Under the pieces are notes generated by a model. The model was not told the origin of the DNA. It searched no databases and saw only the letters and a program-made list of their open reading frames with translations. Below, piece by piece: positions 3,338 through 19,269 of a DNA stretch of 20,709 bases (position 1 is its first letter; each line of letters opens with the position of its first letter). The stretch comes from a virus. A program made the translations under genes and the position numbers. The stretch covers positions 1-20,709 of IMG/VR virus record IMGVR_UViG_3300025769_001071; one strand, given 5' to 3'.

Positions 3338-3850
3338 CTATCCTTCGGGACAGACGAGATTTCCAACAGCTTCCACTCCGCTTGCAAAGCACGGTTCCTC
3401 CAAGTCTCTGCTTCTCTCTTCCAGTGCTTCTTGGATTTTTCGTTTAATCTCTTCAGCACCTTCTCTAGCCTCTCTCTTTTTTTCTGCTTCATATTGCTCT
3501 GCAAGCTCCTTTGCCATCATTACCATGTCTTTATACATATCGTTCTGGCGCATAAGTTGTATGCACCTGTTGCGTCCCCACAGTACAGTCGTGTGGTCGC
3601 GTTCAACCATCTCACCAATGCGGGGCAGACTGCTTCTAGTCTTGAGCCAGCACAGGTAGTACATGGCTTGCCGTGCCCGTGCTACATAGGCTGGGCGGCG
3701 TTTGCTTTTCAACGTAGACTCGTCCACCATGAAGACATCACCGACAGCCTTTATGACAGAAGCTACAGAGACAATATCCTCATCATCGTAGAAGACTTCC
3801 TGACCGTCATCACCCTTCATGTTTACTTTTACCTCAACATTTACTTTCAT
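3338..3850 (-). CDS. Stand-alone DnaA domain IV (DnaA-box-binding) protein
   Basis: Residues of about 26-105 match the C-terminal DNA-binding domain of the replication initiator DnaA. They include KSKRRPAYVARARQAMYYL (48-66) and the DnaA signature IGEMVERDHTTVLWG, with Arg84, Asp85, His86, Thr87, Thr88 and Val89. The AAA+ ATPase and helicase-loading domains are absent; residues 105-150 are a charged coiled coil instead. It should recognise DnaA-box-like DNA without being able to open an origin. It might steer host DnaA, silence host initiation or regulate phage genes. It lies in the recombination operon, 3 bases after the preceding gene. The domain call is firm; the role is inference. Confidence 0.85.
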   Translation of the reverse strand: MKVNVEVKVNMKGDDGQEVFYDDEDIVSVASVIKAVGDVFMVDESTLKSKRRPAYVARARQAMYYLCWLKTRSSLPRIGEMVERDHTTVLWGRNRCIQLMRQNDMYKDMVMMAKELAEQYEAEKKREAREGAEEIKRKIQEALEERSRDLEEPCFASGVEAVGNLVCPEG

Positions 3851-4406: not shown

Positions 4407-4652
4407 CTAAAACGGGATTTCGTCATCAAGAGCTTCAGGAGCGGCCTCTGCGCGTTCCTTCTTCTCTTCATGCTTGCCCTTCAAGGCTGGAGCCTTGGGG
4501 TTGTCGCTGTCGTTTTCCCACAGAGCTACCTCTCTGGAAGAGCCATCCATCAGGATGACAGACCCTTTGTACTTGGGGTACTTCCCACCCACTTCGTACT
4601 TCTCATTTAACCAGAGAGATATCTGGCCTCTGTTGTCGTATTTCTGGCTCAT
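4407..4652 (-). CDS. Putative single-stranded DNA-binding protein with SSB-type tip
   Basis: The 81-residue protein has a compact beta-rich first half (ISLWLNEKYEVGG, YKGSVILMDG, REVALWEND), then a Lys/Glu/Ala-rich linker, and ends in DDEIPF. That last hexapeptide matches the acidic C-terminal tip by which bacterial SSB proteins recruit partner enzymes. The first half is shorter than a classical OB fold, so this is either a minimal ssDNA-binding protein or a decoy carrying the SSB tip. It lies directly after ERF with a 4-base overlap (ATGA), which fits a role in strand annealing. The function is inferred from tail and neighbourhood. Confidence 0.65.
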   Translation of the reverse strand: MSQKYDNRGQISLWLNEKYEVGGKYPKYKGSVILMDGSSREVALWENDSDNPKAPALKGKHEEKKERAEAAPEALDDEIPF

Positions 4653-5263
4653 TTCGTTTCCTTTCCGATTTCAGCCTTACGTTTGGCAAACAAGGCAACA
4701 GTGCTGTCTTGCTCCCCCTTCTTCATTGCCTGTAGTTCTTCTTTCACCTCTGTATACAGGGCGTTCAAACCAGCAAGGTCAGGCGTAGCGTTTACACGCT
4801 CCTCAATGGTCTTATTAGGCGACCCCGAAGGCTTGGGAGGGCTAGACTTCGGGGTCTTGGGAGTCTCCGTCGAGGCTCCCTTTTCAAGTTTCGTTGCGGC
4901 GTTTCCGTCATCATCGTAATCGCCAGATGCCATGCCCAGCACTGCGCCGTATGCGTAACGCCGTGCGTAGGTGATGGCACTGCCCATAGACTGCGCGTCT
5001 TGTTTGGCAGAAAAGATGGGCTGGTTTGATGCGATGTGTTCGCCACTTTCGTGCATCAGGATGGTGGTCAAGACAAACTGACCATCAACCAAGTTGGGTG
5101 ATTGAGAGATAGACAGGCCATGCTTTGCCAACACTGGCTTGGCAGAGTTCACATAATCTTCCATCGTGCTGTACTTTGATTTATGAAACGGGTTGAGTCC
5201 CGTCTGCGGTACAGTGCTAAACTCACCCTGTGCCGCGCTCAATGCTTTTGCTAGATTTTCCAT
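4649..5263 (-). CDS. erf: ERF-family single-strand annealing protein
   Basis: This 204-residue protein matches the ERF (essential recombination function) family, which anneals complementary single strands for phage recombination and genome circularisation. Family hallmarks are visible in order: NPFHKSKYSTMEDY (24-37), KPVLAKHGLS (42-51), TTILMHESGEHI (66-77), and the strongly conserved GSAITYARRYAYGAVLG (94-110) followed by DYDDDGN. The C-terminal half is a Pro/Lys/Ser-rich linker and a helical tail, typical of the family. Its ATG overlaps the stop of the RecB-like nuclease gene by one base (TAATG), and the SSB-like gene follows. This nuclease-annealase-SSB order is a classic recombination set. 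Confidence 0.9.
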   Translation of the reverse strand: MENLAKALSAAQGEFSTVPQTGLNPFHKSKYSTMEDYVNSAKPVLAKHGLSISQSPNLVDGQFVLTTILMHESGEHIASNQPIFSAKQDAQSMGSAITYARRYAYGAVLGMASGDYDDDGNAATKLEKGASTETPKTPKSSPPKPSGSPNKTIEERVNATPDLAGLNALYTEVKEELQAMKKGEQDSTVALFAKRKAEIGKETK

Positions 5264-6120
5264 TATATCTTAAACAACTCCTTCGCTTGTTGTAGGTAAT
5301 CATCTGGCATAAACCGCCAGCGAAAGTCGTCCCAGTTTGGTTGTATCCAATACTTCAGGACATTCGGGTCACTGCTGATGGACAGCAGATTCTCCCACAC
5401 AATCGCATTGTGCAGAATCTGGTTAAAATGGTGGTTGAGTGACGCATCAGATAGAAGGTCACAGTTATCTGAGTTGAAGGTCACATAGCCTTCCGTGGTG
5501 GCATACACCAGATTGGCTTTCTTGCCTGTTGCCGCGCTGTACACAGCCACCTGTCTTACATGCTCTGGCTGAGGCACCTCTGGTAGCTTCACCTTCCGCA
5601 CACCACGGCTTCCATCTTTTCTTTCCATGCCAAGACCGTTCCACTTGGTCTTGATTTCGATAAACTCAAAGTCACCAGTCAAATCGACAAAGCCGATAAT
5701 CGGCATGGTCAGCTTTGGATGCTCTACTGTAATTTGCTCTTCAGCAGTCATTGCTTCATTGAACCAGCCACTCGTCAGGCTTAAACAACCCTCAGTGCCA
5801 TTGGCGACCATAGCCTCAACGTCCTCAACGTATCTGTCACGCTTTATCTCGTCATTATCATCGGTGGGGGCGTGTTCTGATATACGCTTCTGAGCCACCT
5901 GTATGGCATCCTCTGGCGCAAGACCATCACACAGGATGCCCTGTATGGCATCGTGAGCGGAGCCACCAGCAATTGCTGGAACATTGGTAGGGATATTCTT
6001 ACGCTCGTCTTTGAGGTAAACGTACTCAAACAGGCGTAGACAGATAGGCTTCTCGTACTGGCTTGGAGAGCCATGCGTAAGCCCAATTGCGGCGATGTTT
6101 GCCTGTAGTTTTTCTCTCAT
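5263..6120 (-). CDS. RecB/Cas4-like PD-(D/E)XK exonuclease
   Basis: The 285-residue protein has the motif order of RecB-type nucleases: His56 in GGSAHDAIQ, Asp146 in GFVDLTGD, Glu155 and Lys157 in FIEIKTKW, then the motif Gln190-x3-Tyr194 in RQVAVYS. It would resect double-stranded ends to give single strands for the ERF protein encoded next. Start ATG 6120 is chosen because AAGGAG lies 8 bases upstream; the open frame continues to 6219 but would overlap the upstream gene. No cysteine cluster of the Cas4/AddB iron-sulphur kind is obvious. Confidence 0.85.
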   Translation of the reverse strand: MREKLQANIAAIGLTHGSPSQYEKPICLRLFEYVYLKDERKNIPTNVPAIAGGSAHDAIQGILCDGLAPEDAIQVAQKRISEHAPTDDNDEIKRDRYVEDVEAMVANGTEGCLSLTSGWFNEAMTAEEQITVEHPKLTMPIIGFVDLTGDFEFIEIKTKWNGLGMERKDGSRGVRKVKLPEVPQPEHVRQVAVYSAATGKKANLVYATTEGYVTFNSDNCDLLSDASLNHHFNQILHNAIVWENLLSISSDPNVLKYWIQPNWDDFRWRFMPDDYLQQAKELFKI

Positions 6121-6178
6121 TCCCTTTTCTCCTTGTCCACATAATGCACATGCAAAGTGGATAGTCAATACATTTCTT

Positions 6179-6571
6179 TCATTGGTCGTCCAGACCCAGA
6201 AATTCATTACACGCATCAACCACCCTCATGCCGATATACATGCTCTCGCTGGTCACTCCGTCACGAACAGTCGTGCATTTCGTTATGATGCAGTTTCCAA
6301 CGTCAATGTGCTGGCTTGGGTTGGTGTCGTGTTCTGCCACCATCAGGCACACCTCACAGCCTGCGGCGACTAGGTTTTGGATTAGGTAGCGAAGCATCCT
6401 TCGCTGGCCTTCGGGCATGGATGCCCCAACGCCCTTGAGTTCACCCAGCACATACTTTTTACCCTTAAGGTCATAGATAAAATCTATGTCTGTCGGCGTG
6501 TAACCGTTGAGGACTAGGTTGGTGTAGTCCTTCACCTGCCCAGCCCGTAGAGGCCATTTGATTAACGTCAT
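6179..6571 (-). CDS. Small PD-(D/E)XK-like protein, first gene of the recombination operon
   Basis: This 130-residue protein shows a likely nuclease core: Asp28/Asp30 in YTPTDIDFIYD, then Glu44 and Lys46 in KYVLGELKG, followed by Gln56 in PEGQRRML. This is the D...ExK arrangement of small resolvase-type or restriction-like enzymes, comparable in layout to T7 endonuclease I. The second half has a beta-alpha pattern (CEVCLMVAEHD) that fits the fold. ATG 6571 is chosen because AAGGAG lies 6 bases upstream. A junction-resolving or end-processing role is plausible but unproven. Confidence 0.65.
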   Translation of the reverse strand: MTLIKWPLRAGQVKDYTNLVLNGYTPTDIDFIYDLKGKKYVLGELKGVGASMPEGQRRMLRYLIQNLVAAGCEVCLMVAEHDTNPSQHIDVGNCIITKCTTVRDGVTSESMYIGMRVVDACNEFLGLDDQ

Positions 6572-6678: not shown

Positions 6679-6900
6679 ATGTCTTATCAAAATACGAAAC
6701 TTGGTGAGTGGTGTGAACTCAAAGGCATATCAAGCTATGAGTTGGGGCGACGTTGCAACGTCACGCAATCGTGCGCCTTTAGGTGGATGACTGGCGAGAC
6801 TCGCCCAGACTGGGGGCACATACCGCTCATAACTCAGGCGACTGAGGGCGCTATTACCGCAAACGACTTTGTGCCAAGTGCCGAAAATGTCGAAGCGTAG
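6679..6900 (+). CDS. Cro/CI-like helix-turn-helix regulator
   Basis: This 73-residue protein is a small HTH DNA-binding protein. Helices 2 and 3 correspond to SSYELGRRCNVT and QSCAFRWMTGE (about 18-40), followed by RPDWGHIPLITQATEGAITANDF, a pattern seen in Cro- and YdaS-like phage regulators. It is the first rightward gene beside a divergent promoter region, the usual place of an early switch regulator, so it probably binds there and balances leftward recombination against rightward replication. It has an AAGGAG ribosome binding site and overlaps the next gene. Confidence 0.8.
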   Translation: MSYQNTKLGEWCELKGISSYELGRRCNVTQSCAFRWMTGETRPDWGHIPLITQATEGAITANDFVPSAENVEA

Positions 6901-7327
6901 CAGAGACAAGGGTGCCGCTTTTGAAAGAACTTGCATAGCGGAACTTCGGGAAATTTTGGGCGATGCTTTGGTATCACAAAGCGTGCGCCGCAACCTGTCT
7001 CAATTCCAAGAGGTAGACCTTCCCGACATAACTTTGGAGCCGTTCTGTATTGAGTGTAAGCGTTATGCAAAAGGCAGTTGGTACCAGAAAGACTGGCTGG
7101 AGCAGTGCAATCGCGCTGCCGAAAAAATGAATATGATACCAGTTTTAATTTGGAAATACGACAGGCTTCCAATACGGGTGACGCTGCCTATTTTTGCGGT
7201 CAACAGCGAGTGGGCGGTCGGGCGTTCAGACCAATATTCTTGGCCTGTTTCTGGCAATGCCATGATACCCGTGACATTCACCACGCTGGAGGATGCTTGC
7301 AGTGTGATGCGTGAGTGGCTTGTATGA
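6887..7327 (+). CDS. PD-(D/E)XK nuclease, phage resolvase-like
   Basis: This 146-residue protein has a clear nuclease motif set: Glu13 in KGAAFERT, Asp47 in DLPDI, Glu56 and Lys58 in FCIECKRY, and Gln73 in WLEQCNRAA, followed by strands with IPVLIWKYD. The pattern is that of archaeal Holliday-junction-resolvase-like and related phage nucleases. ATG 6887 is chosen over an upstream TTG at 6869; it overlaps the regulator gene by 14 bases. It lies directly before the replication initiator, where it could resolve branched replication intermediates. The fold is fairly certain; the substrate is not. Confidence 0.75.
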   Translation: MSKRSRDKGAAFERTCIAELREILGDALVSQSVRRNLSQFQEVDLPDITLEPFCIECKRYAKGSWYQKDWLEQCNRAAEKMNMIPVLIWKYDRLPIRVTLPIFAVNSEWAVGRSDQYSWPVSGNAMIPVTFTTLEDACSVMREWLV

Positions 7328-7773
7328 GTTTCAGGCTGGTCGAAAGTGCCTTCGATGCACCCGTGGCAGACCCACAAGCCAAGCTGGTTTTGTTGGCTAT
7401 TGCCCGTCACGCAGACGAGCGCGGTTCGTGCTATCCATCAGCCGCACGCTTGATGGTAGTGACGGGACTGAGCAAGGCATCGGTGTACCGCAAGATAGGC
7501 TACCTTGAAAAGCATGGCTTTATTCGAGTTAGGCGCAGGTGGGGCACGGGCAAAAACACAAGCAATTTATATCATCTCTTGTTGTCTCAGGCCGAGACTA
7601 AACAGTCTCTGTGTGAGACTAAAGTGTCTCAGGGTGAGCCACTAATAAGTCAAGAACCTATCAATAATATATCTAGTCATATTAGTGACTCACAGGGAGA
7701 CAACGAAACAAAACAAGACCCGTTTTTAGACTTGGCAAAGAAAGCATTGGAAGGGAAAAATGACACAAAGTAA
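7324..7773 (+). CDS. O-like replication initiator with winged helix-turn-helix
   Basis: Residues 1-88 form a winged-helix domain of the HTH_36 / phage replication protein O kind: LVLLAIARHADERGSCYP (24-41), the HTH LMVVTGLSKASVYRKIGYL (about 46-64), and the wing KHGFIRVRRRWG. The remaining 60 residues are a polar, low-complexity linker and a short helix. As in lambda O, the linker-coding DNA carries repeated palindromes (7584-7701) that look like the binding sites of the protein itself. ATG 7324 overlaps the previous stop (ATGA). The next gene is a possible lambda-P-like partner. A purely regulatory role is possible, but position and iterons favour initiation. Confidence 0.75.
   Translation: MSFRLVESAFDAPVADPQAKLVLLAIARHADERGSCYPSAARLMVVTGLSKASVYRKIGYLEKHGFIRVRRRWGTGKNTSNLYHLLLSQAETKQSLCETKVSQGEPLISQEPINNISSHISDSQGDNETKQDPFLDLAKKALEGKNDTK
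7584..7701 (+). repeat. Iteron cluster A, candidate replication origin
   Basis: Four palindromes of the form GTCTC-N5-GAGAC lie at 7584-7598, 7605-7619, 7626-7640 (right half GAGCC) and 7687-7701 (left half GACTC). The first three start exactly 21 bp apart, i.e. two helical turns. Between the third and fourth lies a 32-base AT-rich spacer flanked by CACTAATA and TATTAGTG, so 7626-7647 and 7680-7701 form a 22-bp inverted repeat with 18 matches. This is iteron plus AT-rich unwinding element architecture inside an O-like gene. Confidence 0.65.
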
Positions 7774-8314
7774 AATGGATTATGAAGGCCGAATGAGCCT
7801 ATGTCGCACAAAATTCGCGGCGAACATGGCGACACTATACGCGCCACACGTTGCGCTTAGAGACAATCCAGAGGGCGCGAAGCTATACCTTCAGGAAATT
7901 TGCGAAGCCATAAACAGCAATATGCCCAGCGATATTAACAGCGAATTATATACAGAATATCTGCGTAAAATATGGCGGGGCGTAATTGGCGAACACACTA
8001 GCCGCTATTGGTTCCCGCTTAATTTAATCGTGAAACACTCGAAACAAGTGGCGCGTGAACACCACCAGAGAAATAGAACACCTGCAAGCTATATCCCGCA
8101 AGGGCAGCAACAGGCCGATGATATTCGCACAAAGGGTGGAAACTGGACGGTCGAAGGCGCACGGGCGGCAATCACCAAAACACAAGCCGAAATAGATTCG
8201 GGTGCCCTGCCTGTCAATATTGGCAACATGCTATTAAAGATACCTCAAAAGGCTTTAGAGCGTCTTACAGAGGCAAACAGGGGTGACGATATACCAGACC
8301 TAGGCGATTTATAA
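7760..8314 (+). CDS. Putative replication accessory protein
   Basis: This 184-residue protein overlaps the initiator gene by 14 bases and has a good AAGGG site before its ATG. It is soluble and mostly helical. Its N-terminal part includes ATLYAPHVALRDNPEGAKLY and a YLRKIWRGVIGEHTSRYWFP segment; the C-terminus ends in DDIPDLGDL. No ATPase motif is visible. Position directly after an O-like gene is where lambda-type phages place their helicase loader (P), so a loader role is a reasonable guess. The acidic tail weakly recalls an SSB tip. No sequence family recognised. Confidence 0.65.
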   Translation: MTQSKMDYEGRMSLCRTKFAANMATLYAPHVALRDNPEGAKLYLQEICEAINSNMPSDINSELYTEYLRKIWRGVIGEHTSRYWFPLNLIVKHSKQVAREHHQRNRTPASYIPQGQQQADDIRTKGGNWTVEGARAAITKTQAEIDSGALPVNIGNMLLKIPQKALERLTEANRGDDIPDLGDL

Positions 8315-8355
8315 AAACGCCTGTAAGGTGCCTGTGAGGGCTTTTAAGGGCTATG

Positions 8356-8386
8356 CAATAAAAAGGGGCGACCCGAAGGCCGCCCC
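8356..8386 (-). terminator. Intrinsic terminator of the accessory operon
   Basis: On the minus strand a 9-bp GC-rich stem (GGGGCGGCC with GGTCGCCCC, one G-U pair) closes on a TTCG tetraloop and is followed at once by TTTTTATTG. It lies downstream of the last minus-strand gene (ending at 8411). Confidence 0.8.
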
Positions 8387-8387
8387 G

Positions 8388-8425
8388 ATAAGACGTAAAG
8401 GGAAAACGTCTTATGTGTTTTGTTG
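8388..8425 (+). terminator. Probable terminator of the replication operon
   Basis: ATAAGACGT (8388-8396) and ACGTCTTAT (8406-8414) form a perfect 9-bp stem with a 9-base loop, followed on the plus strand by the T-rich GTGTTTTGTTG. It overlaps the stop codon of the opposing gene and sits back to back with the minus-strand terminator. Confidence 0.6.
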
Positions 8426-8620
8426 TCTCCGCAGATATGCGGGTTGGTCTATATGGTGTTCATCATATAGCCAGTGGCCTATGTTTCTCCCGCCACAATT
8501 TGTTATAAGCCGCACGGTCACTTTTGGGGGGCGTGACGTTTTGTGTACGTATAAATGCGCCCCGCCATAAATGGCGATAAATAAAAACAAACTAAGCATA
8601 ATTGCAAAAACTATAAACAT
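8411..8620 (-). CDS. Small membrane protein of the accessory block
   Basis: The 69-residue protein begins with one hydrophobic segment (FIVFAIMLSLFLFIAIYGG, residues 2-20), then a basic, soluble tail with HKTSRPPK and WLYDEHHID. It is likely anchored in the inner membrane. Its ribosome binding site and start (AAGGATAAACAATG) are the same as those of the gene before it, with the upstream stop TAA inside the site. It is the last gene of the block. Such small membrane proteins near ArdC may serve superinfection exclusion or anti-defence, but there is no direct evidence. Confidence 0.6.
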   Translation of the reverse strand: MFIVFAIMLSLFLFIAIYGGAHLYVHKTSRPPKVTVRLITNCGGRNIGHWLYDEHHIDQPAYLRRQQNT

Positions 8621-8623
8621 TGT

Positions 8624-8896
8624 TTATCCTTCCCCGTTTTCTGGTAATTTCACGATAACAGCACGCCATGTGCTATCAACCTTTTCAAGCAATCCGCGCC
8701 TAATTAAGCCTTGTATGGGCTGGCTTTTTGCAGTGGAACATTTAATCCCATTGTCTTTGCAATGCTTCCTGAAATACTCAAAAATGTTATTTCCGTACCT
8801 ATCCATTCCATATTCGCTTGTATAAAAGGCGGCTTTCCCGTTTCCTTCCTTCACAATGTCCAAAATGACTTGCTGTTCATATGTTAAATTTGTCAT
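8624..8896 (-). CDS. Winged-helix-like small protein of unknown function
   Basis: This 90-residue protein starts at the ATG of an AAGGATAAACAATG site that also contains the previous stop. Its layout, an N-terminal helix (LTYEQQVILDIVKEG), a middle helical region with EYFRKHCKD, and IQGLIRRGLLEKVDSTW ending in strands (RAVIVKLP), resembles a winged-helix fold, where GLLEK followed by strands forms the wing. It could be a regulator of the accessory operon. No family is recognised. Confidence 0.6.
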   Translation of the reverse strand: MTNLTYEQQVILDIVKEGNGKAAFYTSEYGMDRYGNNIFEYFRKHCKDNGIKCSTAKSQPIQGLIRRGLLEKVDSTWRAVIVKLPENGEG

Positions 8897-8899
8897 TGT

Positions 8900-9070
8900 T
8901 TATCCTTTCCAAAATTTCACTAATCCAACCACAAGCAGGGTGGTGCCCAAATAGCCCATCCCATTGCTTGTGTGGTCTGATATCGGGGCGATACCTTCCA
9001 GACCTGCGATAGCCAGTCCGACAAAAGCAAAGCCCAAATATAAAAAACAAATTGAATAAATATTTTTCAC
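8900..9070 (-). CDS. Two-helix small membrane protein (56 aa)
   Basis: The frame is open to 9097, but GTG 9070 is preferred because AAGGA stands 7 bases before it, as in the two following genes; the upstream residues would be the site itself read as codons. The product has two hydrophobic segments (about 4-23, containing FLYLGFAFVGLAIAG, and about 38-52, GYLGTTLLVVGLV) with a short loop, ending in KFWKG. It is probably an inner-membrane hairpin. Function unknown; the context is the ArdC accessory block. Confidence 0.55.
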   Translation of the reverse strand: MKNIYSICFLYLGFAFVGLAIAGLEGIAPISDHTSNGMGYLGTTLLVVGLVKFWKG

Positions 9071-9090
9071 TGTCTTATCCTTCCTTAAAA

Positions 9091-9291
9091 TTAGCAAAAC
9101 TTAGGGTTGTGTGTTCGGGTGTTTCTAATTTGCATAAACCGCACATAATCCAAAAACCCGCGCTGATATGGGCTATCGGGCGGGTCAAACTTAAAACTAT
9201 CAACCGCCAGCGTTATATCTAATTCACCCGCTTCATGCTCGCGCCTAGCGTCATGCCAGCCTTGCCCGTGTTGTACTTCATCCCTTGTCAT
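9091..9291 (-). CDS. Small protein of unknown function (66 aa)
   Basis: ATG 9291 is chosen; it follows the stop of the Cys-rich protein at 9296, with AAGGG about 11 bases upstream. The open frame up to 9342 would overlap that gene. The product is soluble and includes QGWHDARREHEAGE and a C-terminal YQRGFLDYVRFMQIRN. The spacing of Trp, His, Arg and Tyr suggests a real, compact protein, but no family is recognised. It belongs to the ArdC accessory operon. Confidence 0.6.
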   Translation of the reverse strand: MTRDEVQHGQGWHDARREHEAGELDITLAVDSFKFDPPDSPYQRGFLDYVRFMQIRNTRTHNPKFC

Positions 9292-9295
9292 TGCT

Positions 9296-10024
9296 TTAAT
9301 TTCCCTTCGCAATTGTATCGGCTTTTTTCGTTCTAAAACCATGAGCAGGAAAGCCGATTATAGCCCTGCGGTTTTGGTTTTGACATAGGCCACAATTGGC
9401 GCAATTGACAACGTCAATAAACGTAGCAGGGCAAACGGTAACGCGCCGCCCTTTAGGTGTTTGTTTAGGCAATTGAGAAACTCGCGCCTTGTATTCTTGC
9501 AAGCTTTCCTTTTTGCCGCGCCCGTATTCGGCGGGCAATACCGACACAACGGGCGCAATATCTTGCGCCGCCAATGCGTCGGCATGGGCTAGGTTATTAG
9601 CTGACAAATTGACGGTAAAGCCGCCAGCGTTTGCCGCCCGTACCGCTTCGCGGTTTTCGGCGTGGTTTAGCGTGTTGTGGTGCGTATATGTAAACCCGCG
9701 CTTGCCCTTGTTTGCTTTTGTCAATTCGGCAAGTTTTGGCGCGTCAATTGTCACCCCGTCGCTTTGCAAATCGCCTGCCACGTTATGCCGCCACAACGCG
9801 CCCTTTATTATTTTTGTTTTAACCGCGCCGATAAATTCTTGCCATTGCAAGCCCATTTCGCCGCCCGTAATTTTGCGCCAATTTATAGCGGTTGCGCCGC
9901 CATCGGCATAGCAACCCGCGCCCTTTAAAGGGCAGTCATTAGGGCATGACTTTGCACTGGTCATGGTGGTTGATATTGCGCCCGTTTTTCGATTGCGGCT
10001 TGTTTGCGTAAATTGTGTAAACAT
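9296..10024 (-). CDS. Cys-rich Gp88/DUF7227-like protein
   Basis: This 242-residue protein begins TSRNRKTG...TT and has two cysteine clusters: Cys27, Cys31 and Cys38 (SCPNDCPLKGAGCYA), and Cys198, Cys208, Cys211 and Cys214 (ending NCANCGLCQ). Between them lies HHNTLNHAENREAVRAA and a beta-rich core. Conserved phage and plasmid proteins annotated as gene-product-88 or DUF7227 share this opening. The cluster spacing suggests bound zinc or an iron-sulphur centre; it is not the CxxxCxxC of radical SAM enzymes in its usual form. ATG 10024 has GGGG 6 bases upstream. It follows ArdC in the same operon, so an anti-defence or DNA-transfer role is possible, yet unproven. Confidence 0.65.
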   Translation of the reverse strand: MFTQFTQTSRNRKTGAISTTMTSAKSCPNDCPLKGAGCYADGGATAINWRKITGGEMGLQWQEFIGAVKTKIIKGALWRHNVAGDLQSDGVTIDAPKLAELTKANKGKRGFTYTHHNTLNHAENREAVRAANAGGFTVNLSANNLAHADALAAQDIAPVVSVLPAEYGRGKKESLQEYKARVSQLPKQTPKGRRVTVCPATFIDVVNCANCGLCQNQNRRAIIGFPAHGFRTKKADTIAKGN

Positions 10025-10044
10025 GTCTTTCCCCTTTGCATATT

Positions 10045-10091
10045 CGGGCAAAATAACCCGTATTATAGGGCACCACATGGGCACCCTATAA
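10045..10091 (-). other. Two hairpins between ArdC and the Cys-rich gene
   Basis: TTATAGGG (10063-10070) and CCCTATAA (10084-10091) form an 8-bp stem, and CGGG (10045-10048) with CCCG (10057-10060) a smaller one. On the minus strand they sit between the ArdC stop and the next start. A TATAAT on the minus strand (10068-10063) lies in the stem, but no matching -35 is clear. They may be an RNA processing or attenuation site. Confidence 0.35.
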
Positions 10092-10097
10092 CGCTGA

Positions 10098-10958
10098 TTA
10101 TTCTGCAGCTATAGCTTGTTCGGCTTGCAATCCCTCTAAATAGTCAACCGCTTTTTGCGCTTGCGACATTGCGCTATAGATAGCCTTATAGTCGTCTGCA
10201 ATGGCTTGCATCCAGCTATTGAGGTATTTTGCATGGTCGGGGGTCGGTTGCTTCTCGACCCCTAATGACATGCAAAGCAAAGCCGCACCACACTCCGCGA
10301 CTAATTCTTCTCGTGCGTATTTTTCCGACCCGAAACTATTTTGCAGGTCACGCTTGCAACGTGTTTCGTGACCCGTCCAGTGTGTCAATTCATGAAGCAG
10401 GGTTGAATAATAACCCGTTGCGCTTTTGAACGTGTCACGCGCTGGCATACCGATATAGTCCAGCGTCGGGTGATAAAATGCGCGACCATCATTTTCGCGG
10501 ATTTGCGCGCCCGTATTTTTTACGAAATTTTCGGCAAATTCGACGGGCACAATATCGGCCTGCTTTTCTTGTTTTGGCATTTCGTAGCCTTCCACTTGCG
10601 CGACATTAAAAACCTTAAAATATCTCCACATGCCGAAACGCTCTTTTTTGCCCGTTTCTTTATTGTCTTTTTCAATCATACTAAAAAAGAAAATATCGCT
10701 TGCTTTTTCGCCCTTGCGAATTTTCGCGCCCTTGCTTGTCCATTGCTTAAAGGTTGCCCAAGCGTTGTGGTCGTAACCACGGGCGCAAGTTAACGCGCCA
10801 AGGTAAAAGCTATTCATACCTCTATAAGGCTTTCCCGATACAAGGTTATAGGCCACGCCCTTACTTGTCCAAGGCTTTGCCCAATCGGTGCCATGTTCAC
10901 GCATCAAATCGATTATTTCGTTTGCAACGGCTTGCATCGCGTCTTTGGTTTTAGTCAT
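10098..10958 (-). CDS. ardC: ArdC-type antirestriction protein
   Basis: This 286-residue protein has the two-domain layout of ArdC. The N-terminal ssDNA-binding ArdC_N/DUF1738 domain shows DWAKPW (25-30), PYRGMNSFYL (44-53) and AWATFKQW (67-73), a pattern typical of that family. The C-terminal zinc-metallopeptidase-like domain has the HELTH motif (189-193) in YYSTLLHELTHWTG, and the downstream EELVAECGAALL helix (about 217-228) that supplies the third metal ligand. ArdC proteins from plasmids protect entering DNA from host restriction. ATG 10958 has AGGGA upstream. It heads an operon of small accessory genes, away from the structural genes. Whether it protects this phage is inference from family knowledge. 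Confidence 0.85.
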   Translation of the reverse strand: MTKTKDAMQAVANEIIDLMREHGTDWAKPWTSKGVAYNLVSGKPYRGMNSFYLGALTCARGYDHNAWATFKQWTSKGAKIRKGEKASDIFFFSMIEKDNKETGKKERFGMWRYFKVFNVAQVEGYEMPKQEKQADIVPVEFAENFVKNTGAQIRENDGRAFYHPTLDYIGMPARDTFKSATGYYSTLLHELTHWTGHETRCKRDLQNSFGSEKYAREELVAECGAALLCMSLGVEKQPTPDHAKYLNSWMQAIADDYKAIYSAMSQAQKAVDYLEGLQAEQAIAAE

Positions 10959-11051
10959 TTGAAAATTCCCTTTTTCTGTTTGCCGCTTTATTGCGACTAA
11001 TCCTTTAAGTAATGCAAGACGGGCATCATTACAAGAAAAAAATAACAGGGC

Positions 11052-11085
11052 TTTACGTTTTTTTTATGTGTGGTATTTTTGCAAC
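11052..11085 (+). promoter_or_regulatory. Candidate promoter P1 upstream of the TerS-like gene
   Basis: TTTACG (11052-11057), a 16-base spacer and TATTTT (11074-11079) resemble sigma70 boxes, with TG in the extended -10 position. The 20-base core ATGTGTGGTATTTTTGCAAC (11066-11085) recurs at 16965-16984 with 18 of 20 bases the same, and more loosely at 11563-11582. Confidence 0.5.
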
Positions 11086-11112
11086 GGTAACAAAAGGATG
11101 GACAATTAAAGT

Positions 11113-11469
11113 ATGACAAAAGCTATTAAAGAGACCCGGGGGCGAAAACCTTATAAGAATGGCGGGCAAGGTGGAGGCTGGCAAAGGCTGTCCAGTCAGC
11201 TTGCGACGGTATTCGATAAGGCTATACAAAAGCACGGGGGGCATGATGCCCTCGCTCAGACCGTTGCCGACGAATTATCAGCGCGCCCCGTCGAGGCTCT
11301 TAGGTTGCTGGCAACGCTAATGCCCAAGAACATAAACGTAAACGCCGAGATATCGCCAAGCGATAGCCTTGCCAGTGCGCTTGCCAATGTACAAGACGCG
11401 CTAGAGCTACAGCGTAGCGAAAACGCCACGGTAATAGAAGCAGAATTTACAGATAAATCAGAGGGTTAG
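11113..11469 (+). CDS. Putative terminase small subunit
   Basis: This 118-residue protein has a basic N-terminus with an AT-hook-like TRGRKP (8-13) and a Gly-rich turn. A helical middle follows (SQLATVFDKAIQKHGG, DALAQTVADELSARPVEAL), with LRLLATLMPKNINV (about 63-76). The last pattern, a helix ending in L-x-x-LMPK, is common to phage TerS-like and DUF5681-like proteins. TerS recognises the packaging site on concatemeric DNA and presents it to the large subunit. The large subunit gene follows after a 410-base control region. The start ATG has AAAGGATGG further upstream, so the site is less than ideal. The call relies on position as much as sequence. Confidence 0.55.
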   Translation: MTKAIKETRGRKPYKNGGQGGGWQRLSSQLATVFDKAIQKHGGHDALAQTVADELSARPVEALRLLATLMPKNINVNAEISPSDSLASALANVQDALELQRSENATVIEAEFTDKSEG

Positions 11470-11562
11470 CCCCAGGTTTAGAATTGTTCTAATTTTAGTT
11501 TGCGATTAGCCCCCCTTAAATTTTCGGGCGGGGGCTGTTATATATTATATATACCCCTCCCT

Positions 11563-11582
11563 ATGTGTGACATATCTGCAAC
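11563..11582 (+). promoter_or_regulatory. Candidate promoter/operator motif P2
   Basis: ATGTGTGACATATCTGCAAC matches the P1 core at 16 of 20 positions, keeping TGTGTG and TGCAAC at the ends. Its -10-like part (CATATC) is weaker than in P1 and P3. It points towards terL. Confidence 0.35.
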
Positions 11583-11649
11583 ACCCCCCCCCTTCGTCCT
11601 CAGAAACGTCAAGGTACCCTAGCCAAAAAATTTCCTGAAATATTCACGA

Positions 11650-11743
11650 GTCTCTGTGTGAGCCACTAATATAATAGATATATTATATATATTACTGACT
11701 TATTAGTGACTCACTGTGAGACTACTAAGTCTCTGTGTGAGAC
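11650..11743 (+). repeat. Iteron cluster B, noncoding mirror of cluster A
   Basis: Three palindromes of GTCTC-N5-GAGAC type lie at 11650-11664 (right half GAGCC), 11708-11722 (left half GACTC) and 11729-11743. The last two start exactly 21 bp apart. A 29-base AT-rich spacer (11672-11700) separates the first from the others, and 11650-11671 and 11701-11722 form a 22-bp inverted repeat with 18 matches. The 15-mer GTCTCTGTGTGAGAC is identical in both clusters, and the layout is cluster A reversed. Confidence 0.65.
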
Positions 11744-11783
11744 TACTTGCCAGTAACACCGCACCTGTGTCATAAATATCACA

Positions 11784-11875
11784 GAGGAGAGTTTGTTTCG
11801 GTTGAGCGTTCTCCTCCTTGTCGCTCCCGATTGGGGGGACGGGTTATTTCCCTTTCCTGTCCCCCCTACAAGGAG
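11784..11875 (+). promoter_or_regulatory. terL leader with sequestered ribosome binding site
   Basis: CTCCTTGT (11814-11821) is the exact complement of ACAAGGAG (11868-11875), which is the terL Shine-Dalgarno site. Between them GGGGGGAC (11833-11840) pairs with GTCCCCCC (11859-11866), so the two would be held together. The competing GAGGAGA (11784-11790) can pair instead with TCTCCTC (11810-11816), freeing the site. Two mutually exclusive folds would control terL translation. Confidence 0.45.
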
Positions 11876-11880
11876 AAGTT

Positions 11881-13281
11881 ATGAGTGATAAAAAATTAAA
11901 CGTAGAGGAGTTGTTGCTTGCAATAGCCCTTGACCCTGTTTTGTTTGTTGAGTCCATCCTGCAAGCCAAGCCAGAGGAGTGGCAGCGCAAGGCTCTGTGT
12001 GCTGTGAGAGATAATGACCGTGTAGCCATCCGCTCTGGTCACGGTATCGGCAAGACTGCATTTCTTTCGTGGTTGATACTCTGGTGGGTATTGACACGCT
12101 CCCCTAGTCGGATAGCATGTACTGCCAACACTGCTAGTCAGTTGTCAGACATTTTATGGGCAGAGGTTGCAAAGTGGCATCGCCGTATGCCAGACGGCCT
12201 GAAAGATTTGATAGAAGTGAAGTCTGACAAAGTTGAGCTTACAGGGCACGACAGTTTTGCCGTTGCCCGTACTGCGCGCCGAGAGACTCCAGAGGCGTTG
12301 CAAGGTTTTCACTCACCCAACATGCTGTTTCTGATTGATGAGGCATCTGGTGTGGACGATATCATCTTTGAGGTTGGTGAAGGTGCTATGTCTACAGAGG
12401 GTGCCAAGACCGTTATGACGGGCAACCCGACCCGTACATCTGGATATTTCTACGAAGCCTTCAACAAGATGAGAGAGAGATGGTTTACCATGAAGGTGGC
12501 CTCTGCTGATAGCAGTCAGGTCAGCGACAATTTCATAGATGATATGAAAATGAAGTATGGGGAGGACAGCAATATTTATCGTGTGCGTGTTTTGGGTGAA
12601 TGGCCTGAAGCCGATGACGATGTGGTCGTTCCGTTGCACCTCTTGCAAGCTGCCTCAGAGCGTGAACAAGAGGCCGCAGAAACAACGACAGTTGTTTGGG
12701 GCTTGGACGTTGCGCGTTTTGGCACCGATAAAACTGCCCTGTGCAAGCGTAAAGGGAATGTCGTGACTGAGCCAGTCAAGACATGGCGCAACAAAGACCT
12801 AATGGAGATATGTGGGATTATACTGAATGAATATGAAACGACTAGGTGGAGTGATAGGCCATCCGAAATACTTGTTGACAGTATCGGTCTTGGTGCTGGT
12901 GTTGTTGACCGCCTCATGGAACTTGATTTACCTGTGCGTGGGATTAACGTCGCTGAGTCCCCCGCAATGGGTGACAGATACGGACGCTTACGCGATGAGT
13001 TGTGGTTTCTCGCAAAAGAGTGGTTTGAAGCCCGTGAGTGTACAATACCAAAACAAGACGAATTGATTGATGACTTGTCAAAGCCACGATTCAAGTTTAC
13101 GTCAAATGGTAAACTGAAGGTTGAAAGCAAAGATGAGATGAAAAGGCGTGGGCTAAACTCTCCCGACCTTGCAGACAGTTTTTGCCTGACGTTTGCAACT
13201 CGTGCTAGCATTGCCAAGAGTGGCGGCGCACACAAATGGAACAGGCCGCTAAATTATGGTTCAGCAAAGTGGGTGGTGTGA
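11881..13281 (+). CDS. terL: Terminase large subunit
   Basis: This 466-residue protein is the motor and nuclease that packages phage DNA into proheads. The ATPase domain has a Walker A motif SGHGIGKT (52-59), Walker B LFLIDEA with Asp153-Glu154, and coupling motif TGNP (180-183). The C-terminal RNase H-like nuclease has Asp276 in GLDVARFG, Asp333 in LVDSIG, and the final acidic SPDLADSF near residue 440. ATG 11881 is chosen because AAGGAG stands 5 bases upstream; a longer reading from 11818 adds 21 unlikely residues. Its stop overlaps the next start (TGATG). The leader can fold to hide the ribosome site. Confidence 0.95.
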   Translation: MSDKKLNVEELLLAIALDPVLFVESILQAKPEEWQRKALCAVRDNDRVAIRSGHGIGKTAFLSWLILWWVLTRSPSRIACTANTASQLSDILWAEVAKWHRRMPDGLKDLIEVKSDKVELTGHDSFAVARTARRETPEALQGFHSPNMLFLIDEASGVDDIIFEVGEGAMSTEGAKTVMTGNPTRTSGYFYEAFNKMRERWFTMKVASADSSQVSDNFIDDMKMKYGEDSNIYRVRVLGEWPEADDDVVVPLHLLQAASEREQEAAETTTVVWGLDVARFGTDKTALCKRKGNVVTEPVKTWRNKDLMEICGIILNEYETTRWSDRPSEILVDSIGLGAGVVDRLMELDLPVRGINVAESPAMGDRYGRLRDELWFLAKEWFEARECTIPKQDELIDDLSKPRFKFTSNGKLKVESKDEMKRRGLNSPDLADSFCLTFATRASIAKSGGAHKWNRPLNYGSAKWVV

Positions 13282-14718: not shown

Positions 14719-14927
14719 TTTGCCCACACTGCGGATACCCAAACCCTAATGGTTATCATGGAAACTGTAAGTCCTGCCGCAAGCCCTTGCAGGTTGAGCC
14801 TGTTGTTGAGACAAAACCAAAGGTTAAGTCAGAGCCTAAACCAAAATCAAAACCGAAGAGCAAAAACCAAAATCAAAACCGAAGAGCAAAAAAGCCAAAG
14901 TATCTAAGAAGGCATAGTCATGGCTAA
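14715..14927 (+). CDS. Zinc-ribbon protein with frameshifted tail
   Basis: Residues 1-22 form a zinc ribbon with Cys3, Cys6, Cys18 and Cys21 (CPHCGYPN...CKSCRKPL). A low-complexity Lys/Pro/Ser tail follows. A perfect 26-bp tandem duplication at 14841-14892 shifts the frame. Removing one copy would give a tail ending KSKKAKVSKKA with a stop at 14915-14917, two bases before the portal ATG. As it stands the tail reads NQNQNRRAKKPKYLRRHSHG and overlaps portal by 8 bases. The N-terminal ribbon is intact in either case. Its ATG overlaps the preceding stop (ATGA). Confidence 0.7.
   Translation: MICPHCGYPNPNGYHGNCKSCRKPLQVEPVVETKPKVKSEPKPKSKPKSKNQNQNRRAKKPKYLRRHSHG
14841..14892 (+). repeat. Perfect 26-bp tandem duplication
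   Basis: Two identical adjacent 26-base units (14841-14866 and 14867-14892), each starting CCAAAATCAAAACCGAAGAG, lie within the tail of the zinc-ribbon gene. Because 26 is not a multiple of three, the duplication changes the reading frame after it. It looks recent, or could be a sequencing or assembly artefact in low-complexity DNA. Confidence 0.9.
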
Positions 14928-16944
14928 AATGAACGACATTGAGTTTCAGGCGATTGTTCGCAATGAGATTGAACAGGCACTAGGACATTACGATACGGAA
15001 TACTCGCAAGACCGTATTGATGCGATGGACTACTATCTGGGTGAGCCATTTGGCAATGAGCAGACTGACCGCTCTCAAGTCGTTAGCACAGAAGTATCCG
15101 ACACCATTGAACACATCATGCCATCTCTCATGCGTATTTTTACGCAGTCTGATGACTATGTGCGTTTCGTTCCACACGGCCCCGAAGATGTTGCCATTGC
15201 CGAGCAAGCCAGTGACTACTGCAACTGGATTATTAACAATGACAATCGCGGTTTTGAAATCATGCACAACTGGTTCAAGGATTCTCTTATCCTGAAACTT
15301 GGTGTTGTGAAGTTCTATTGGGATGAAATCGTAGATGTTGAGACAGAGGAGTACGAAGGTCTTAACATGGACGAGCTAACCATCTTGGTTTCAGACCCAG
15401 AGGTTGAGGTTGTTAGTCAGGATGAGCGCACCATCGGTGAAGACCTAGAGACACCAGAGGGTATCGTTATCCCTGCCCCTGTTATCTATGATGTAAAAAT
15501 CAAGCGCACAAAAAACACTGGCAGTGTGCGTATTGAAAACATACCGCCAGAAGAGTTTTTGATTGGCAACAGAGCTAAGTCTCTTGAGGATGCCAGTTTT
15601 GTTGCACACCGTTCAGCTATGACTGTCAGCGACCTTGTGTCGATGGGCTATGACCGTGATGAGATTGAACAGTATGCTGGTTACACAGACCTAGATATTT
15701 CTGAAGAGCGCACATCTCGCTTTGAAGACCTAGAGTCAAACTCAGCCACTGATAGCAACGACCCGACCATGCGTCACGTTCTTGTGACCGAATGTTATAT
15801 TCGCTCCGACTATGATGGTGATGGTGTTGCTGAGTTCCGCAGGGTTCTTACTGTAGGCAATGGATATCACATTCTTGAGAATGAAGAGTTTGACCATATA
15901 CCGTTTGCTGTCCTGTCTCCGATTCTTATGCCGCACAGAGCCATTGGTCGCTCTGTAGCAGAGCTTGTCATGGATGTGCAGCTTATCAAGTCTACGCTTA
16001 TGCGTCAGTTGCTTGATAATATTTACAACACAAATAACGCTCGTGTTGTTGCTGTTGAGGGTCAGGTAAACCTAGACGACCTACTTACTAACAGGCCAGG
16101 CGGGATAGTTAGAACCCGCACTGCTGGTGCTGTTCAGCCATTACAGGTTCCAGAGGTATCTTCATCTGTATTTCCTGCGTTGAACTATATGGACAGTGTT
16201 CGTGAGCAGCGTACAGGTATTAGCAAGCAATCAATGGGCTTGGATGCAGATGCTTTGCAATCAACAACGGCTACTGCTGTTGCCGCCATGCAAGCTGCTT
16301 CGCAGGGCAAGATTGAAATGATTGCCCGTGTATTTGCAGAAACTGGTGTGCGTAGTCTTTTCCGTGGCATTTTGCATCTAGTTACGAAGTATCAGAACAA
16401 AGAAAAAATTATTCGTTTGCGTAATCAGTTTGTGCCCATGAACCCCCGTGAGTGGGAAAGTGCCTATGATGTACAAATCAATGTAGGCTTGGGCACGGCG
16501 CAGCGTGACCAGCAGGTTGCCTTCTTGTCTCAGATTGCTCAAAAACAAGAGCAAGTTCTTATGCAAATGGGGTTGAACAACCCAATGGTTAGCTTATCTC
16601 AGTATCGCAATACGCTTGCCAAGATTGCAGAACTTTCTGGCTTCAAGGATGCTTCTCAGTTTTTTGCACCTGCCGAACAGATTGAGGCCACACTTATGCA
16701 ACAGGCGCAAGCTGCTCAACAGGCTGGGCCGCAGCAAGACCCTGCTGTTGCTGTTGAAATGCAAAAAATGCAAGCTGAGTTGCAGATGGAGCAACAGAAG
16801 ATGGAGATGGAGTTTCAACTTAAACGCGAGAAGATGGCTGCTGAACTTGAACTTCGTCGCCAAGAGCTTGAATTTGAAATGCAGCTTCGTACAGAAAAAG
16901 TGCGCTCTGGCATAGAAACATCAATAAATCTACCCCGTGTATAA
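14920..16944 (+). CDS. Portal protein, P22-like
   Basis: This 674-residue protein forms the dodecameric ring through which DNA enters and leaves the head. N-terminal features fit podovirus P22-like portals: YYLGEPFGNEQTDRSQVVST (38-57), then IMPSLMRIFTQSDDYVRFVP. The wing/stem region has PPEEFLIG and the segment GVAEFRRVLTVG. The C-terminal region carries DVQLIKSTLMRQLLDNIYNT (about 347-366), and the last 90 residues form a Gln/Met/Glu-rich coiled coil, as in the barrel or clip-adjacent tails of large portals. Its size is in the upper range for portals. It follows the zinc-ribbon gene with an 8-base overlap and precedes promoter P3. Confidence 0.9.
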   Translation: MAKMNDIEFQAIVRNEIEQALGHYDTEYSQDRIDAMDYYLGEPFGNEQTDRSQVVSTEVSDTIEHIMPSLMRIFTQSDDYVRFVPHGPEDVAIAEQASDYCNWIINNDNRGFEIMHNWFKDSLILKLGVVKFYWDEIVDVETEEYEGLNMDELTILVSDPEVEVVSQDERTIGEDLETPEGIVIPAPVIYDVKIKRTKNTGSVRIENIPPEEFLIGNRAKSLEDASFVAHRSAMTVSDLVSMGYDRDEIEQYAGYTDLDISEERTSRFEDLESNSATDSNDPTMRHVLVTECYIRSDYDGDGVAEFRRVLTVGNGYHILENEEFDHIPFAVLSPILMPHRAIGRSVAELVMDVQLIKSTLMRQLLDNIYNTNNARVVAVEGQVNLDDLLTNRPGGIVRTRTAGAVQPLQVPEVSSSVFPALNYMDSVREQRTGISKQSMGLDADALQSTTATAVAAMQAASQGKIEMIARVFAETGVRSLFRGILHLVTKYQNKEKIIRLRNQFVPMNPREWESAYDVQINVGLGTAQRDQQVAFLSQIAQKQEQVLMQMGLNNPMVSLSQYRNTLAKIAELSGFKDASQFFAPAEQIEATLMQQAQAAQQAGPQQDPAVAVEMQKMQAELQMEQQKMEMEFQLKREKMAAELELRRQELEFEMQLRTEKVRSGIETSINLPRV

Positions 16945-18321: not shown

Positions 18322-19269
18322 ATGGCACAATTTACTACAGCCAACGCAGTTGGCGAACGGGAAGACCTGAGTGATGTAATCACTCGCATCGACCCAGATG
18401 AAACTCCAATTTTTTCTGCTCTGCGGAAAGAAACTGGTAACGGTGTATTTGTCGAGTGGCAAGTACAAGAATTGGCTGCTGCCGTAGCAACCAACTACCA
18501 AAACGAAGGTGCTGATGCAGCATACGCAACCCCGACAGCTACGACTCGCCTCGGAAACTACATGCAAATTTCACAGAAAGATGCACAAGTTTCTGGCACT
18601 CTGGACGCTGTTGATAAGGCGGGGCGTGATGCGGAAGTCGCATACCAAAAAGTTCTTAAAGGACTTGAGTTGCGGCGCGATATAGAAAAGTATCTGAACT
18701 CAGATACGGCTCGTAGCGCATCTGACCCGCGTAAAGCTGGTACTCTGTCAAGCTGGATTACCAACGTGTCTATCGCTAGTGACGAAACTGCTTTCAATGC
18801 AGGCGTTGGCACTGGCACGCACGTTCCTGCTATGGATGGCACGAATCGCACTATGACTCTTGCAATGATTGACGCTGCTATGCAAGCTGCCTACACCGAT
18901 GGTGGTCAGCCGAACATGCTCGTTGTTTCTCCTGCTAAGAAGGCTTCCTTTAGCGACCTGAACAGTGGTTCAGTTGCTACCAACCAAATCAACTATACTG
19001 CTCCTCGTGAGGCAGCTATTGTTGGGTCGGTTTCGCTGTATCTCAGCGACTATGGGCAGCTTGATGTGGTCATTGACCGTTTTGCCTCAGATGACCGCGT
19101 GTATCTGCTCGACAGTGACTACGCAAGCATCTGCACACTTCCCAACCGTAACTTCACGGTTGACGATTTGGCTAAAACGGGTGACTCAGAGAAGTTCCAA
19201 ATCATTACGGAATTTACTCTGAAGGTATCTGCACCAAAAGCTCACGGTGCGGTTTACAACCTGTCGTAA
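18322..19269 (+). CDS. Major capsid protein, SU10/DUF5309-like
   Basis: This 315-residue protein fits the HK97-fold coat proteins of the SU10/DUF5309 family. The N-terminal signature is TTANAVGEREDLSDVITRID with PDETPIFSALRKE, then FVEWQVQELAAA. The P-domain or backbone segment GNYMQISQKDAQVSGTLDAV and RRDIEKYL follow. Near the C-terminus come VSLYLSDYGQLDVVIDRF and DDLAKTGDSEKFQIITEFTL, typical of this family. It is the main shell protein. It has no long N-terminal delta domain, consistent with the separate scaffold gene upstream. A terminator-like hairpin follows. Confidence 0.9.
   Translation: MAQFTTANAVGEREDLSDVITRIDPDETPIFSALRKETGNGVFVEWQVQELAAAVATNYQNEGADAAYATPTATTRLGNYMQISQKDAQVSGTLDAVDKAGRDAEVAYQKVLKGLELRRDIEKYLNSDTARSASDPRKAGTLSSWITNVSIASDETAFNAGVGTGTHVPAMDGTNRTMTLAMIDAAMQAAYTDGGQPNMLVVSPAKKASFSDLNSGSVATNQINYTAPREAAIVGSVSLYLSDYGQLDVVIDRFASDDRVYLLDSDYASICTLPNRNFTVDDLAKTGDSEKFQIITEFTLKVSAPKAHGAVYNLS

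Follow-up and report, generated by a model that had tools for sequence, protein, structure and literature searches.

The 20,709 bases analysed here (referred to as the window) are the complete IMG/VR virus record IMGVR_UViG_3300025769_001071, probably a fragment of a phage genome of about 35 kb (relatives measure 35,014 and 35,060 b). They contain two clusters of short, regularly spaced repeats (iterons), one (cluster A) inside a gene for an O-like replication initiator and the other (cluster B) in noncoding DNA upstream of the gene for the terminase large subunit (terL). We consider it rather probable that A and B are two initiator-binding, origin-like arrays, of which A would start theta replication, and B would serve as a second origin and/or as a barrier to replication forks. 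In terms of known systems, the pair would most likely be a dual origin of the type found in phage SPP1, built on an O origin of the lambda type. The sequences themselves show how the clusters are laid out, that their phasing is conserved, that A and B change in concert, and that B co-varies with the iterons of the initiator gene.

A search for GTCTC-N5-GAGAC with at most one mismatch gave exactly seven matches in the 20,709 bases (starting at 7584, 7605, 7626, 7687, 11650, 11708 and 11729), just where the original prediction had placed them, and all of these 15-bp near-palindromes are confined to the two clusters. Dinucleotide shuffles of the sequence (n=100) contained 0.42 sites on average and 3 at most, and 0 of the 100 reached seven. 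The sites had all been described as palindromes of this form, which is true of three (7584, 7605 and 11729); the other four have one mismatch each (7626 and 11650 end with GAGCC, 7687 and 11708 start with GACTC), and these four are the iterons facing the AT-rich cores. The remaining details of the predicted layout were recovered without change: steps of 21 bp within each group, spacers of 32 and 29 bases between CACTAATA and TATTAGTG arms, a 15-mer that is identical in both clusters (7605 and 11729), and a cluster B that is A reversed. Between the inner iterons, the reverse complement of B agrees with A at 40 of 45 positions. Its alignment with A scores 30.5, compared with 17.0 for unreversed B and 12.5 for the best of 5,000 shuffles. 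The A+T content is 76% in core A (the top 0.8% of windows by AT-richness) and 86% in core B (only 3 of 20,667 windows are equally AT-rich), the value for the whole sequence being 53%. Judged by these features, the layout of each cluster is that of a lambda-type origin, i.e. 15-bp dyad iterons two helical turns apart, placed on both sides of an AT-rich core.

The gene containing cluster A had been taken to encode an O-like initiator, and family matches of its product bear this out (phrog_8540 “replication initiation O-like”, 3e-20; Pfam HTH_36, 1e-13). In the AlphaFold2 model of the protein, residues 1-85 form a confidently predicted winged helix, residues 89-131 a disordered linker and residues 133-143 a short helix, and cluster A codes for residues 87-126, inside this linker. 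The proposed likeness of A to a lambda-type origin was also upheld, as four iterons lie inside an O-like gene and adjoin an AT-rich core. Fold comparison of the initiator returned matches to generic winged-helix proteins only, a sequence search of solved structures returned nothing specific, and a DNA-level search of a phage collection with the O region gave no match; the alignment of the initiators is without a conserved stretch. The product of the adjoining gene (7760-8314) is a candidate helicase loader by position only. Profile scans of the PHROG/Pfam type found no family match for it, and lambda P is among the weak helical fold matches of its model (Z 7.9).

The original prediction had singled out close relatives as the place where the repeats might prove to be absent or unphased. 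In the close relatives L006 and L007 both clusters are present, with the phasing seen in the window, and the same is true of most of the wider relatives. All three sites of B in L006 and L007 are identical to those of the window. In A, the centres of the iterons have changed (together with the encoded amino acids) and their arms have not. Of the four places where arms flank the cores, three read CATAAA/TTTATG instead of CACTAATA/TATTAGTG, and A and B have the greater part of this arm change in common. Within a genome, A and reversed B share 40 of 45 positions (window) or 39 of 45 (L006), more than the orthologous cores of these two phages share with each other (36/48 for A, 35/45 for B). By this comparison the cores of A and B are in concerted evolution, through recombination between the copies, common selection, or both.

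The survey was then widened by means of TerL, for which 80 relatives were fetched; those with both clusters are metagenomic contigs in every case. Nearly all relatives with TerL identity above about 85% and enough upstream sequence have an array of the same layout before terL, built of different iterons (e.g. GTGGCACTGTGCCGT, AGGACACTCTGTCCT, TAGTCACTGTGACTA and CTGACACGCTGTCAC). Among relatives with a readable initiator gene, to which this comparison is limited, the linker region of the initiator shares the iteron class of its own B in L025, L103-L106, L112, L019, L020, G013 (L032), G014 (L039), G015 (L040) and G006 (L021). In an all-against-all comparison, eight of the nine group representatives had their own B as top match, with ties included (permutation p 5e-5). 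A second method, which involves no picking of palindromes, gave p 2e-5, with L106 marginally preferring the B of L112, which is of the same class; both p-values are a guide only, given that L106 and L112 share a class and that the group representatives are related. The steps between iterons are nearly everywhere 21-23 bp (with one of 24 and one of 33); those that span the core are 55-74 bp. Within A, which is coding DNA, steps of 21 and of 22 bp both occur and the iterons stand in different reading frames. On this evidence the phasing is a constraint on the DNA and not a seven-codon protein repeat, as had been argued at the outset. A suggestive link between a recognition-helix arginine and the iteron class (L106, L019/L112, all GGGCA) was also considered; C72C1 combines this arginine with a TGACA iteron, and the link was not used.

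Two sets of comparisons separate the initiator from the packaging proteins. L006 and L007 have B sites identical to those of the window, initiators 81-83% identical, and a protein encoded at the position of terS (small terminase subunit; assigned from position) that is 32% identical. L025 and L105 have terS-position proteins 80-81% identical to that of the window, TerL 91-92% identical, initiators 37-38% identical, and different iterons in B; L021 agrees with this (terS-position protein 80%, initiator 30%; same contig, L107). Since B is identical at 32% terS-position identity and different at 80-82%, B follows, in these comparisons, the initiator and not the packaging proteins (TerL and the terS-position protein). 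In L019 and L020, a gene has been inserted between B and the leader of terL, and B is still present and still matches the initiator. B is thus very probably a second binding site of the initiator, as it matches the iterons of its own initiator and not the terL or terS-position gene. The mirrored arrangement of A and B did not prove to be general. In L019, L020, L112 and L032 the initiator module is inverted; there the initiator gene runs opposite to terL and the two clusters are not mirrored, so that the mirror in the window is a result of gene orientation and not a rule.

The closest parallel to such a pair is found in SPP1, a phage of Bacillus subtilis, in which oriL lies inside gene 38 and oriR in noncoding DNA amid the late genes, at a distance of 12-13 kb; gp38 (G38P) binds both, and stalling at oriR is believed to set off the production of concatemers with the participation of an annealing protein, an exonuclease, SSB and a Holliday-junction resolvase (PMC6316719, PMC3485210). 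The window likewise has two similar arrays of repeats and AT-rich DNA, one in the initiator gene and one noncoding, and a comparable set of recombination genes (strong matches for Erf and the resolvase-like protein, weak ones for the SSB-like and Cas4-like proteins). The likeness is one of layout and gene set, and it is incomplete: SPP1, with its 12-13 kb spacing, has a Gram-positive host and encodes its own DnaB-type helicase, whereas the arrays of the window are about 4 kb apart, with B beside terL, and no such helicase was seen in the fragment. In lambda, ori lies within gene O and comprises iterons and an adjoining AT-rich region (PMC4488673). Iterons inside an O-like gene and an AT-rich region beside them are shared by the window, which also has a candidate loader gene next to the initiator gene; however, the AT-rich region of lambda is on one side of four iterons, whereas the cores of the window have iterons to either side, and no second array is described for lambda in the literature examined.

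We propose that dimers of the initiator would bind A and melt its core, and that the product of the neighbouring gene would help to load the host replicative helicase, giving theta replication. The same initiator would further bind B, near the packaging genes, where B, as in SPP1, could act as a second origin and/or as a barrier at which forks are stalled by the bound initiator. Replication would then be restarted, in the form of concatemers for terminase, by the annealing, SSB-like, nuclease and resolvase-like proteins of the phage. A more far-reaching proposal, which we advance tentatively and regard as doubtful, is that replication specificity in this phage clade resides in a fast-changing matched set, made up of the initiator and of two groups of iterons, those inside the initiator gene and those of the second origin at the packaging genes. 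The members of the set would change together through A-B recombination and through selection (e.g. for avoiding cross-firing between co-infecting phages), with B firing or stalling forks and so handing DNA to terminase.

Several observations weigh against the dual-origin reading. Layout and the SPP1 precedent are the grounds for taking a binding site to be an origin or a fork barrier, and GC skew at A and B gave no clear origin signature. B abuts a promoter-like stretch, which makes a transcriptional role for it possible. The one exception among the nine group representatives, G007 (L023), combines an initiator and an A of the TGACA type with the B found in L025, which does not match that initiator class; the contig may be chimeric, or the phage a recent mosaic. 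L119 has a cluster A, and no B was found in it; not every relative, then, needs B. More distantly, Psychrobacter phage vB_PmaS_Y8A and Vibrio phage 1.266.O have a related initiator whose gene contains dyad iterons of the GTGACA...GTCAC class at intervals of about 21 bp, and in their records only this in-gene cluster was found. Together with L119, these phages indicate that the second cluster is not required by every O-like phage.

The original prediction offered B as a second origin, an operator, a looping partner or a packaging site. The main rival to a second origin or fork barrier is the operator: the initiator would bind B next to the terL promoter and switch or time late transcription, thereby coupling it to replication, B being no origin at all. 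Initiator binding accounts equally well for the co-variation under this explanation, and the promoter-like stretch begins 3 bp after B and is retained before terL in relatives, including those with a displaced B. On the other hand, the stretch was read by eye and was not flagged by a consensus promoter scan, its distance from B varies (with a gene intervening in L019 and L020), and an operator would not need the AT-rich core that is kept in all B arrays read. The core and the displaced B of L019 and L020 argue against an operator as the whole story, and we regard it as unlikely. The same core would not be required if B sequestered the initiator or looped to A, limiting or timing initiation there by handcuffing, as in iteron plasmids. 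Such an effect of a second array is conceivable, as ectopic copies of the origin arrest lambda replication (PMC4488673), and the iterons and their spacing are common to A and B, 4 kb apart; yet B of the window has three iterons, fewer than A, and we consider this role very improbable.

A packaging site (pac or cos) that the small terminase subunit recognises, with the likeness to A being secondary, would suit the location of B between the terS-position gene and terL, and the ends of many relatives' contigs 220-430 bp upstream of terL could be genome ends. These ends vary, however, and assembly breaks at a variable region could produce them; B follows the iterons of the initiator gene whether the terS-position protein is similar or not. 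We therefore disfavour a packaging site and give it a slender chance at best. Slighter still is the chance that B is a copy of A without function, its likeness to A maintained through recombination between the two, for which one may cite the way in which the cores of one genome change in concert, the Erf annealing protein encoded by the phage and the mismatched B of L023. Against it, B consists of origin parts alone, with no more of the initiator coding sequence, and it is retained, dyads and 21-23-bp phasing intact, in the face of an insertion, of inversions of the module and of divergence among the iteron classes. In a related check, B was rejected as a fragment of the initiator gene, the weak tblastn matches comprising the iteron region and no further initiator coding sequence. 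A second origin or a site of fork control is favoured because B retains a complete origin layout.

In the open-access literature searched, there is no report of this A/B pair, and paired initiator-bound phage origins are described only for SPP1. Phages in which A and B are matched, but in differing iteron classes, form a natural series, and this is independent evidence of selection on a second origin-like site. It also supplies ready-made sets of initiators and sites, in which each initiator can be tested on its own and on a foreign B, and it becomes directly testable whether a late origin has the part proposed for it in the switch from circles to concatemers.

Table 1. Positions of the two origin-like arrays, their parts and the genes considered with them.
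Feature	Positions	Strand	Remarks
Cluster A, origin-like array in initiator gene	7584..7701	+	three iterons, AT core, one iteron
A iteron 1	7584..7598	+	GTCTCAGGCCGAGAC; perfect
A iteron 2	7605..7619	+	GTCTCTGTGTGAGAC; perfect; identical to 11729-11743
A iteron 3	7626..7640	+	GTCTCAGGGTGAGCC; one mismatch
A core	7641..7686	+	46 bp; CACTAATA/TATTAGTG arms; putative unwinding element
A iteron 4	7687..7701	+	GACTCACAGGGAGAC; one mismatch
Cluster B, origin-like array in noncoding DNA before terL	11650..11743	.	one iteron, AT core, two iterons; orientation opposite to A
B iteron 1	11650..11664	+	GTCTCTGTGTGAGCC; one mismatch
B core	11665..11707	+	43 bp
B iteron 2	11708..11722	+	GACTCACTGTGAGAC; one mismatch
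B iteron 3	11729..11743	+	GTCTCTGTGTGAGAC; perfect
Promoter-like TTGCCA-N18-CATAAA	11747..11785	+	read by eye
O-like replication initiator	7324..7773	+	149 amino acids; PHROG 8540, HTH_36, AlphaFold2 model
Helical protein gene adjoining initiator	7760..8314	+	conserved in relatives; model predicted helical
terS-position gene	11113..11469	+	no family match; control for what B follows
Terminase large subunit (terL)	11881..13281	+	family matches
SSB-like protein	4407..4652	-	phrog_18154, 3.5e-5; weak
Erf-family single-strand annealing protein	4649..5263	-	strong match
Cas4-like nuclease candidate	5263..6219	-	phrog_1706, 2e-5; weak match
RusA-like/PDDEXK Holliday-junction resolvase-like protein	6881..7327	+	strong family match

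Some further observations concern the neighbourhood of terL. The terS-position protein of L006 (13686) differs to the extent given above despite a TerL that is 100% identical, and this gene seems to be often swapped. The untranslated leader between B and terL (11785-11880) is strongly conserved in relatives and contains inverted repeats, e.g. GGTTGAGCG...CGCTCCC. A 19-nt motif, TGTGTGGTATTTTTGCAAC, occurs with variants at the starts of gene blocks (11067, 11564 and 16966), with a similar stretch at 11768 before terL, and is possibly a phage promoter element. The contigs L015, L018, L027-L031, L034, L036 and L044 are those that end upstream of terL, at or just beyond B; their ends are either assembly breaks at a variable region by a C-tract or real genome ends.

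Between A and B, the window encodes an ArdC-type anti-restriction protein (10098-10958, minus strand) and a DUF7227/GP88-like protein (9296-10084, minus strand), neither of which was found by tblastn of more distant relatives. A TerL search of bacterial genomes, made with a view to the host, gave distant matches only. A 170-amino-acid protein encoded at 3338-3850 (minus strand) has the C-terminal DNA-binding domain of DnaA (Bac_DnaA_C, 2.5e-16) without the ATPase, and could bind DnaA boxes of the host or of the phage. The portal and major capsid proteins, encoded at 14920-16944 and 18322-19269, are of the phage SU10 type (Pfam SU10_portal, 1e-227; SU10_MCP, 1e-81). Finally, a small open reading frame contains a 26-bp tandem duplication (14831-14882), the copies of which are 92% identical.

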